Below are positions 12,332 to 26,934 of a stretch of DNA of 63,039 bases, in pieces. Under the pieces are notes generated by a model that was not told where the DNA came from, made no database searches, and saw only the letters and a program-made list of their open reading frames with translations. The stretch's first letter is position 1; every line of letters begins with the position of its first letter. This stretch comes from Elusimicrobiota bacterium (lineage in GTDB: Bacteria > Elusimicrobiota > Elusimicrobia > Elusimicrobiales > UBA9959). The position numbers were made by a program, and so were the translations under genes. The stretch covers positions 1-63,039 of the forward strand of contig JAAYVG010000043.1 of the NCBI GenBank assembly GCA_012517285.1, in the 5' to 3' direction.

Positions 12332-12679
12332 AGGGGGCACTGAAAAAGTCTATTTGCGATATAAATTAGTCGATTTTTCATGCCTACCTACGCCTAAGTA
12401 GCTTCGGTAGGCAGGCCTGCCTACGCCAAGGCAGCTTCGGCAGGCAGGCGTGGGGCGAGACGAGGAACGAGGAGTGAGCATACCTGAATAAGGTCTGTAA
12501 ACGACGAGTGACGAAGTCGTAGCCAAAAAGCGACAATTTATACACAAAAGGGGGGAAAAACTGTATGCTTTTTTAATATTAAAGATCAAAAACCTTGCAC
12601 TTTGGATATAAATTTTTAAACTCTTTATACAGTTTCTCATTTATAAAATCTCCACCGTTAGGCTTTTTCAGTGCCCCCT
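12332..12679. mobile_element. MITE family B, copy 1 (348 bp) with 4 bp target duplication
   Basis: The ends AGGGGGCACTGAAAAAG and CTTTTTCAGTGCCCCCT are perfect 17 bp inverted repeats. The element is flanked on both sides by AAAT (12328-12331 and 12680-12683), which fits a 4 bp target duplication. Two tandem 33 bp palindromes (12383-12448) lie inside. The interior shares GAGGAACGAGGAGTGAGCATAC and GACGAAG(T/C)CGTAG words with the copy at 33134-33412. There is no transposase. Confidence 0.85.
12383..12448. repeat. Two tandem 33 bp palindromic repeats inside the MITE
   Basis: Copies at 12383-12415 and 12416-12448 belong to the same family as 488-553. The first has CCTACCTACGCC in place of CCTGCCTGCGCC. 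Their presence inside the element suggests the palindromes insert into or travel with it. Confidence 0.8.
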
Positions 12680-24985: not shown

Positions 24986-25924
24986 ATGAAGCATCTGCTT
25001 ATCCTTTCATTATTTTTATTTTCTCCTTTTTTAAATGCCATAGAAATATCGCTTGAAGAAAACAAGGCAGAGAGTGGTACGGTTGGATATGTTGATATAG
25101 GCCTGATATTTAAAAAATATTCTATAAATTCCAAAAAGGATTTTGATAAGATTGTACTCGAAAAACAAAATATTGTTGACGATAAAAAAAAGGAGTTAAA
25201 TTATTACAGGGCACTAAAAGAAAAGTTGAAAAATGAGCGCGAGATAGCAAGGATGGCTGAGGATTTTTATAAAAGGATGTCAGAAGCTATTGTATCCTCA
25301 TCATCTATTTCTGACACCATAACAATTTCTTCTTCAGATGTTAATATATCATCCTACACACTAAACTCATCATCAGCTGTTATTTCAATCTCAACCATTT
25401 CTGTATCAATATCATCGGTGGAGTATACTGCTAATATCTCAACAGCTTCCCTTGCCAGATTTGATAATATATCTGCTGCTGATATCGCTATATCATCCGT
25501 GAGTGTTTCTGTTCCAGATAATGTTTCAGTCTCATCTGTTGCTATATTATCTCAGACAGCCTTAAATTCACAGGAAGAGCCGTATATTTTTATACCGGGA
25601 ATGGGTAAAATTCCAATATCAAATTTTAAATTTTCGGTTTCATCATCCACAGTTGAAATAGATCGTGCGATAGGTGATGTCGATGCTAAAATTTCTAAGT
25701 TGCAGTCTGATATACTCAGCCTTAAAAATAAGTTTGATGATGAGCTTTCAAAGAGTGCATCAAAGGAGAATGAGAGGATGCTTAAAAAAATATATGATGC
25801 TATAGATGAGGTTTCAAAAGAGGAGGAGGTGACTGTTGTTGTTGATAAGAGAAATATACTTTTTGGCAGGAAAACTGTTGATCTAACTGAAAAAGTTCTG
25901 GAAAAGCTTAGGAGTGAAAGATGA
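24986..25924 (+). CDS. Skp/OmpH-type periplasmic chaperone with long Ser-rich insertion
   Basis: The 312 aa precursor has a signal peptide (about 1-18). The first OmpH strand and helix (GYVDIGLIFKKYS, then Lys/Glu-rich helix to about 100) and the returning helix with the final strands (about 224-310, TVVVDKRNILFGRKTVDLTEKVL) match Skp/OmpH. Between them residues 103-222 are a Ser/Ile/Val-rich tract of alternating beta character (SVSVSVPDNVSVSSVAIL) at the place where the chaperone arms would turn. Position before lpxD is canonical for skp. Its stop overlaps lpxD by 4 nt. Confidence 0.8.
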   Translation: MKHLLILSLFLFSPFLNAIEISLEENKAESGTVGYVDIGLIFKKYSINSKKDFDKIVLEKQNIVDDKKKELNYYRALKEKLKNEREIARMAEDFYKRMSEAIVSSSSISDTITISSSDVNISSYTLNSSSAVISISTISVSISSVEYTANISTASLARFDNISAADIAISSVSVSVPDNVSVSSVAILSQTALNSQEEPYIFIPGMGKIPISNFKFSVSSSTVEIDRAIGDVDAKISKLQSDILSLKNKFDDELSKSASKENERMLKKIYDAIDEVSKEEEVTVVVDKRNILFGRKTVDLTEKVLEKLRSER

Positions 25925-26934
25925 ATTTGAAAGTAAGTGATATAGCAAATTTTTTAAATCTGACTTATGTCGGTAACGGTGAGAAGATCATTAAAAAGCT
26001 ATCCTCTCTTGATAGCTGCGATAGTGATTCTATAGTTTTTATCGAAAAAATAGAAAACATAAAGAATGAAATAAAACCGGGTTGTGTGATATCAAAAAAT
26101 GATGAGAGAATTATCAGAATGTTTGATAGTGTTATATTATCGGATAATCCAAAGCTTTCATTTTCAAAGCTTCTTGCATTTGTGGAGAAGGATAATCAGA
26201 TGAAATATGCTCCGCATGTATCTGAAAGCTCGCATATAAGCGGCAGTGCTAAAATATCTCCAACTGCATTCATAGGTAATTTTGTAACTGTTGAGGATGG
26301 GGCTGAGATAATGGATGATGCTGTAATAGAAAGCGGTTGCTATATAGGTAAGAATTCAAGGATTGGTGAAAGAACAAGAATTTATCCCGGTGTGGTGATA
26401 AGAGAAAACGTTTCTATAGGAAGAGGATGTATTATACATTCTAATTCTGTTATAGGAAGTGATGGATTTGGTTATGTATTTGATCAGGGTAAACATATAA
26501 AAGTTCCTCAGGCTGGTGGAGTAATCATTGGTGATGATGTGGAAATAGGGGCATCTGTCGCAATAGACAGAGCCACAATAGATTTTACTGTTATTGGCAA
26601 TGGAACAAAGATAGATAACCTTGTCCATATAGCACACAATGTAAAAATAGGCAGTAACTGTCTTATATTAGCTCAGGTCGGTATATCGGGGTCCACTGTT
26701 ATAGAGGATGGCGTTATAATAGCGGGACAGGCTGGGCTTAGTGATCATATAAGAATAAAGGCGGGGACCATTGTTATGCCTCAGAGTGGTGTCATAGGAA
26801 ATTTAGAAGGGAACAGGGTTGTTTTTGGAACACCTGCAAGGGATAGGGGAGAGTTTATGAGAATACAGGCTGCTATGACAAAGCTACCTGAGATGTATAA
26901 ATATTTTATGAAGAAGATTAAAAATGAAGGTTAA
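25921..26934 (+). CDS. lpxD: UDP-3-O-(3-hydroxyacyl)glucosamine N-acyltransferase
   Basis: The 337 aa protein has a uridine-binding N-terminal domain and a left-handed beta-helix of hexapeptide repeats (VIESGCYIGKNSRIGERTRIYPGVVI). GSDGFGYVFDQGKHIKVPQ contains the conserved substrate-binding core, and HIAHNVKIG the catalytic His. It adds the N-linked acyl chain in lipid A assembly. It overlaps lpxC. Confidence 0.95.
   Translation: MNLKVSDIANFLNLTYVGNGEKIIKKLSSLDSCDSDSIVFIEKIENIKNEIKPGCVISKNDERIIRMFDSVILSDNPKLSFSKLLAFVEKDNQMKYAPHVSESSHISGSAKISPTAFIGNFVTVEDGAEIMDDAVIESGCYIGKNSRIGERTRIYPGVVIRENVSIGRGCIIHSNSVIGSDGFGYVFDQGKHIKVPQAGGVIIGDDVEIGASVAIDRATIDFTVIGNGTKIDNLVHIAHNVKIGSNCLILAQVGISGSTVIEDGVIIAGQAGLSDHIRIKAGTIVMPQSGVIGNLEGNRVVFGTPARDRGEFMRIQAAMTKLPEMYKYFMKKIKNEG

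Follow-up and report, generated by a model that had tools for sequence, protein, structure and literature searches.

Skp has been studied mostly in Escherichia coli, whose protein is a soluble holding cage with short arms. Clients of Skp contact all three of its arms and the arms are flexible, as stated in the available part of PMC7577714. Lineage-specific appendages have been described as well. In Flavobacterium johnsoniae SkpA, a mostly unresolved C-terminal extension supplies a helix that touches PorV, and export was not detectably affected when this helix was removed from SkpA (both from the accessible part of PMC10994853). The SkpA extension is a precedent for a Skp appendage that contacts a partner.

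Here we describe a Skp/OmpH protein of an Elusimicrobiota bacterium, encoded in the window, by which we mean the whole analysed stretch of 63,039 nucleotides (contig JAAYVG010000043.1). The open reading frame at 24986–25924 is a Skp/OmpH gene, and its product combines the normal fold with family-wide disordered tip loops that carry a conserved repeated motif. This variant of Skp is new; a search of the literature on Skp/OmpH in Elusimicrobiota and on disorder or insertions in Skp gave no paper on these inserts among the matches listed.

The skp gene and its surroundings

The gene (24986–25924, forward strand, as are all features of the locus given below) encodes 312 amino acids in an intact frame with no break. 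Pfam OmpH (PF03938) matches it with 49.7 bits against a curated cut-off of 32.4. The match is restricted to residues 234–308 because the insert splits the domain. There is one clear member of the OmpH family in the 1.96 Mb genome, and the second match (E 0.046) is below the cut-off. Directly downstream lies lpxD (25921–26934, identified by Pfam and the ORF call), whose start at 25921 overlaps the skp stop codon. Thus the identity proposed in the earlier note and the canonical position ahead of lpxD are both borne out, the former also by the fold comparison described below.

Upstream of skp in the window is rplA, named by inspection. The best Omp85/BamA-like match of the same genome is found on another contig (G000:C45:6459-7406) and bamA is not adjacent to skp, while at the related locus L059 an 836-residue POTRA/Omp85 protein is encoded directly upstream of skp. 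The bamA–skp link seems to have been lost in this genome. Elsewhere in the window, a 33-bp unit (GCCTGCCTGCGCCGAAATAGCTTCGGCAGGCAG, with a close variant) forms tandem pairs at two places far from each other, 487–553 and 12382–12449; it is apparently partly palindromic.

The N terminus looks like a signal peptide both by eye and by a crude hydrophobicity rule, and the protein may be exported to the periplasm. The putative signal peptide covers residues 1–18 (24986–25039), with an approximate boundary set by inspection; AlphaFold2 places a helix at residues 4–10, followed by coil. The next part starts at 25043 with a conserved segment, [IL]E[IL]SLEEN+xESGT[VI]GYVDI (residues 20–38, 25043–25099), which is supported by alignments A1 and A2 and by AlphaFold2 and includes the first core strand (residues 33–36). 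In all homologues of its own family (f1), the opening of the mature protein, [IL]E[IL]SLEEN+xESGT, belongs to the best-conserved parts, though it is N-terminal of the first core strand. A start of the mature protein resembling [IL]EIP is also seen in several other families.

Predicted structure

AlphaFold2 was run on a single chain with the 54-row alignment of family f1, and a second job had L054 as the first sequence. The model has a mean pLDDT of 75.3 and a pTM of 0.58. Strand 33–36 is followed by the outgoing arm helix, residues 38–112 (25097–25321), for which the block means are 90–98 up to residue 100, then 82 and 54. The Ser/Ile/Val-rich hypervariable tract, delimited from the sequence and AlphaFold2, occupies residues 103–198 (25292–25579); residues 118–195 are predicted to be disordered, most of them with pLDDT below 50. 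Next comes a conserved hairpin, [IV]xMPG[VIM]xx[VI]P (residues 200–210, 25583–25615, strands 200–203 and 207–210), present in the alignments and in both models, in which P204-G205 is near-invariant. A conserved FKFSVSSS block (residues 214–221, 25625–25648), identified by alignment and motif scan, stands just ahead of the return arm helix, residues 222–280 (25649–25825; block means 94–98 over residues 221–280). The C-terminal core, VVVDKRNILFG...VDLT (25832–25921), is supported by Pfam, alignment and AlphaFold2 and consists of strands 283–286 and 297–299 and helix 301–311. The model with L054 first follows the same plan and again shows tip disorder and the hairpin.

Comparison of the model by VIA-align gives Z 13.2 with E. 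coli Skp 1sg2_C (138 residues, spanning model residues 29–309), 13.1 with 1u2m_C, 11.9 with 4kqt and 11.8 with 8gl8_C; the next chains, which are unrelated, are at Z 3.5 and below. Foldseek gives E. coli Skp the top rank at a weak E value (0.19), with no match at E 0.001 or better. In a profile search of PDB sequences Skp is again first (E 3e-4) and both halves of the protein match. The fold assignment rests on VIA-align of Foldseek's top chains together with the sequence profile.

As modelled, both arms are present in full, and at their tip the insert adds a disordered loop together with a hairpin. The location of the extra residues at the tip of the chaperone arms, suggested earlier, agrees with the helices 38–112 and 222–280 that flank the insert. 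Beta structure of the tract is not supported, both models showing disorder. The chain would form a homotrimer with its tip loops at the mouth of the client cavity.

Size and spread of the insert

We measured the insert as the distance between the GYVDI and VVDK anchors. This is 251 residues in the window protein vs 126–128 in 12 insert-free homologues of family f12, an excess of about 123 that agrees with the roughly 120-residue insertion originally reported. Among 137 homologues (L163, one of the f7 proteins, is cut at the end of its stretch, and genomes G103, G114 and G226 are each counted twice) the spacing is 126–128 in f12 (n = 12, no insert), 136–139 in f6 (n = 4), 171–173 in f2 (n = 14, fixed), 164–342 in f1 (n = 54), 160–324 in f7 (n = 24), 241–299 in f8 (n = 4) and 147–220 in the remaining families. 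Every other family sampled has a longer spacing than f12. All 54 aligned f1 proteins have an insert of some length, and the part between the conserved arm base and the conserved PG is 26–204 residues long among them, with 115 in the window protein.

Skp homologues are found at E 0.1 in 59 of 61 genomes (our own and 60 relatives), specifically in 36/37 of family f1 and 23/24 of its sister family f2, and 203 of 245 genomes across the phylum have an OmpH match at E 0.001. The 54-row f1 alignment (A2) consists of the window protein and 53 of 57 loci; L095 (alternative start), L105 (fragment) and L106 and L107 (both Pelagibacteraceae) were left out. Alignment A3 contains 41 of those 53 loci plus the window protein.

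An assembly artefact or a frameshifted insert, named in the earlier note as the refuting outcome, is ruled out, since the same layout is seen in homologues across the family. The length of the insert changes quickly: L084 and L085 are 97% identical in the flanking core and differ by 13 residues in the insert. Tandem Repeats Finder detects no array within the skp gene, on which ground a DNA tandem repeat is rejected, and the Viral_contigs scan gave no match. The observation of an inserted Skp is thus confirmed, and the interpretation attached to it is partly supported: identity, gene position and tip location agree with it, while a changed client cavity or anchoring to the envelope is conjectural.

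In the f2 homologues (L031–L039 and L046–L050) the arm is fixed at 171–173, and a variable stretch rich in Ala, Pro, Gln and Glu is located between the signal peptide and the domain, not at the arm tip. Because f2 has a fixed arm with an N-terminal low-complexity stretch and f12 has no insert, the tip tract is dispensable in these two lineages.

Composition of the tract and a repeated directional motif

The tract contains the 60-residue segment richest in Ser+Thr, with a share of 0.47, among 376 ORFs sampled from the same genome; the next has 0.42. Composition follows the G+C content of the locus. Over 110 tracts from 19 families the correlation is rho 0.83 for Ala+Pro and −0.70 for Ser+Thr. 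Since Ala+Pro rises and Ser+Thr falls with G+C, the Ser/Ile/Val richness is largely what an AT-rich genome gives. Of the Ser/Ile/Val-rich, beta-like tract claimed at the outset, the Ser+Thr richness stands, the bias tracks low G+C and the beta-like character is not supported.

Beyond composition, the tracts contain a motif, Phi-x-[VI]-S-T-x-[TA], which is relaxed to Phi-x-[VI]-S-[ST] in the AT-rich genome of the window. For the counts, the 137 homologues were reduced by f2 (14), f12 (12) and L163 to 110 tracts and, after removal of 22 redundant ones, to 88; L124 duplicates L051 and was not counted. The FKFSVST block of f1 was removed prior to counting (35 of 37 f1 tracts were cut), leaving 7201 residues in the 88 tracts, and expectations come from 1000 shuffles of each tract, which ignore shared ancestry. 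[VI]ST occurs 80 times vs 11.1 expected and [VI]STx[TA] 56 times vs 2.7, and none of the 1000 shuffles reaches either value. The motif is directional: the reverse words are depleted, TS[VI] to 3 vs 11.1 and [TA]xTS[VI] to 0 vs 2.8 expected. [VI]TT is likewise depleted, with 1 vs 7.5 expected. Val is preferred 4.7-fold at position −2. The excess of [VI]STx[TA] is seen in f1 (34 vs 1.4 expected), in f7 and f8 together (14 vs 0.7) and in the other families (8 vs 0.7). LPG and MPG recur as well, [LMI]PG being found 58 times vs 4.4 expected. Motif count is not significantly related to G+C (rho 0.16, P 0.09; in f1 alone rho 0.07, P 0.63). On the other hand, [VI]S[ST] is absent from all eight tracts of f5 (n = 3), f6 (n = 4) and f11 (n = 1).

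In the window tract itself, [VI]S[ST] and [VI]x[VI]S each occur eight times, vs 3.0 (P 0.0014) and 1.9 expected, respectively, while for strict [VI]ST the count in this single tract, 2 vs 0.56, is not significant (P 0.10). One copy of the motif pattern is fixed, at the conserved residues 216–220 (FSVSS).

Regarding the origin of the copies, 111 of them are spelled by 53 different 9-mers, and the motif is therefore not one copied DNA word. Wobble bases are identical in 5 of 89 within-gene pairs of motifs. TCN codons encode 106 of the 111 motif serines, compared to 813 of the 953 remaining serines of the tracts and a share of 0.69–0.77 in background ORFs. This bias suggests that the copies arose partly by duplication and descent, not by repeated selection. 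A motif acting at the DNA level, such as an uptake signal, was rejected: GTYTCCAC and RTNTCNAC reach 1.0–2.0 times expectation in sampled DNA vs the 20-fold excess of the protein motif in tracts.

Outside Skp, [VI]STx[TA] was counted in five samples of ORFs, with export status assigned by a crude rule and two Skp genes dropped. Exported-looking ORFs (n = 454) have 28 vs 13.1 expected (P 2e-4) and other ORFs (n = 1279) 22 vs 21.2. From a reading of the listed stretches, part of the excess falls in repeated beta-domain proteins. We reject the motif as a general property of exported proteins, as the excess is only twofold. Two proteins of the same genome have tracts of similar appearance: an exported alpha/beta hydrolase with an AXE1 match (L198:5480-6367, reverse strand), whose tail with ITLSTQTVSISTESINTST resembles the Skp tract, and a protein that has no Pfam match and is exported or membrane-bound (L188:12930-14615, reverse strand), in which a Pro-rich linker is followed by a NVSSASISTVTESNVSISTIITSTE tract.

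Possible roles of the tip loops

The explanation we favour, tentatively and at a little short of even confidence, is that this is a true Skp cage whose disordered tip loops serve as multivalent docking or client-holding arms. Long disordered loops would form the ends of the coiled-coil arms, and a putative trimer would have three of them around the opening of its client cavity. Several copies of the extended directional motif, together with the conserved LPG/MPG hairpin, would be displayed by each loop. Many weak copies of one peptide could engage a fixed outer-membrane partner and so provide a docking site for hand-over; alternatively, they could engage unfolded clients by their amphipathic strands where these enter the cavity. 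Given that clients touch all three flexible arms, tip loops could serve either to retain clients or to dock a cage that has been loaded. The gene itself, its predicted fold with the disordered tip, the spread of the insert across the family and the excess of the motif are results; binding by the motif and the nature of its target, like export, the trimer and the position of the loops at the opening, are inferences. A repeated directional motif makes a binding or modification role likelier than a plain spacer. Against the favoured explanation stand the strict motif's lack of significance in the window tract, its absence from f5, f6 and f11, the dispensability of the tract in f2 and f12, the TCN bias, the disregard of shared ancestry in the shuffles and the unchanged export after removal of the SkpA contact helix.

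There are two main alternatives. The first, which is rather unlikely, sees in the tract a disordered and almost neutral spacer tolerated at the tip of the coiled coil, with its composition set by mutation bias and its motif copies being relics of duplication. The hypervariable length (26–204 residues), the dependence of composition on G+C (Ala+Pro, rho 0.83), the TCN bias of the motif serines, the absence of the tract in f12 and its apparent replacement by an N-terminal stretch in f2 would all be expected of such a spacer. Against it, the insert is lost in none of 54 f1 proteins, and both the PG hairpin and the FKFSVST block are strongly conserved. Moreover, the motif is directional, with depleted reverse words, in three separate family groups, and its copies within a gene differ at wobble bases in all but 5 of 89 pairs.

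The second alternative, which we hold to be unlikely, is that the tract is a low-complexity O-glycosylation region in which the V-S-T motif is the local acceptor and glycans at the arm tips keep the loops soluble or protected from periplasmic proteases. A disordered stretch rich in Ser, Thr, Ala and Pro in an exported-looking protein would suit this, and so would the look-alike tracts in the two further exported proteins and the mild enrichment of [VI]STx[TA] in exported and not in other ORFs, an excess that comes partly from repeated beta-domain proteins. Proteins of the Wzy_C type, a family common to O-antigen ligases and O-oligosaccharyltransferases, occur in 226 of 245 genomes, with six matches in our own. 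Wzy_C proteins are mostly polysaccharide enzymes, and for this reason their presence is unspecific and says little; co-variation of Wzy_C with the tract is uninformative, as the family is present almost everywhere. OGT-type glycosylation is ruled out by the absence of GT41 (PF13844) in all 245 genomes with a profile that was positive in 2 of 14 controls. In the available part of PMC12871550, bacterial O-glycosylation is described as generally lacking a sequence motif, with Bacteroidota the only known exception. Nor is the Bacteroidota-type D-[ST]-hydrophobic the dominant motif of the tracts: D-[ST]-[AILVMT] is found 38 times vs 21.4 expected, against 111 vs 12.5 for [VI]ST in the same tracts with the FKFSVST block included.

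Finally, we consider it improbable that the loops fold into the cavity as a pseudo-client, their amphipathic V-x-V-S-x pattern mimicking unfolded outer-membrane strands and plugging the chaperone while it is empty, to give way to an arriving client. The alternating hydrophobic/Ser pattern of the window tract ([VI]x[VI]S, above) speaks for this, as does the fact that a peptide can be bound and ordered inside a Skp cavity, with the N terminus of SprA being enclosed by SkpA (accessible part of PMC10994853). However, most of the tract has pLDDT below 50 in both single-chain models, and amphipathicity would not require a feature as specific as the strict S-T pair.

Returning to the multivalent tip arms, a stronger version of this explanation is conceivable, and we put it forward with less assurance. 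Across most Elusimicrobiota, the motif of the three arms might be recognised by a dedicated envelope factor, either for outer-membrane docking, which would make Skp a tethered delivery chaperone, or for a Ser/Thr modification guided by sequence, such as has been described to date from Bacteroidota alone. The lack of the motif in f5, f6 and f11, the TCN bias, the disregard of shared ancestry in the shuffles and the twofold excess of the motif in other exported-looking ORFs count against this strong version. In most families of a whole phylum the arm tips of Skp have been rebuilt, with a short motif conserved while its surroundings drift. If the motif binds a partner, it offers a handle on how Skp hands over its clients. 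Should it instead be a site of modification, a system for modifying proteins would come to light in a phylum of which few members have been cultured.

Comparison with known systems

A parallel to the motif is the O-glycosylation motif of Bacteroidota, D-[ST]-hydrophobic, which is likewise a short Ser/Thr motif of exported proteins; it differs in its letters and is 1.8-fold enriched in the tracts. The OmpH-like protein CC_1914 of Caulobacter (PDB 4kqt) has the Skp-type fold (Z 11.9, 140 residues aligned). With 140 residues aligning in a chain of 169, it has no room for a comparable tip tract.

E. coli Skp (PDB 1sg2, 1u2m) shares the head-and-arm fold, with 138 of 142 residues of 1sg2_C aligned at Z 13.2 and both halves recognised by profile. 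It is without the tip insert (anchor spacing about 111, by hand count on the profile alignment, vs 251 here) and hence without the motif array and the MPG hairpin. F. johnsoniae SkpA (PDB 8gl8), which forms a trimer, likewise has an extension specific to its lineage, most of it unresolved, and the shared fold aligns at Z 11.8. This extension is found at the C terminus and works for the type 9 translocon, according to the available part of PMC10994853, whereas in the Elusimicrobiota protein the extra part is located inside the arm tip.
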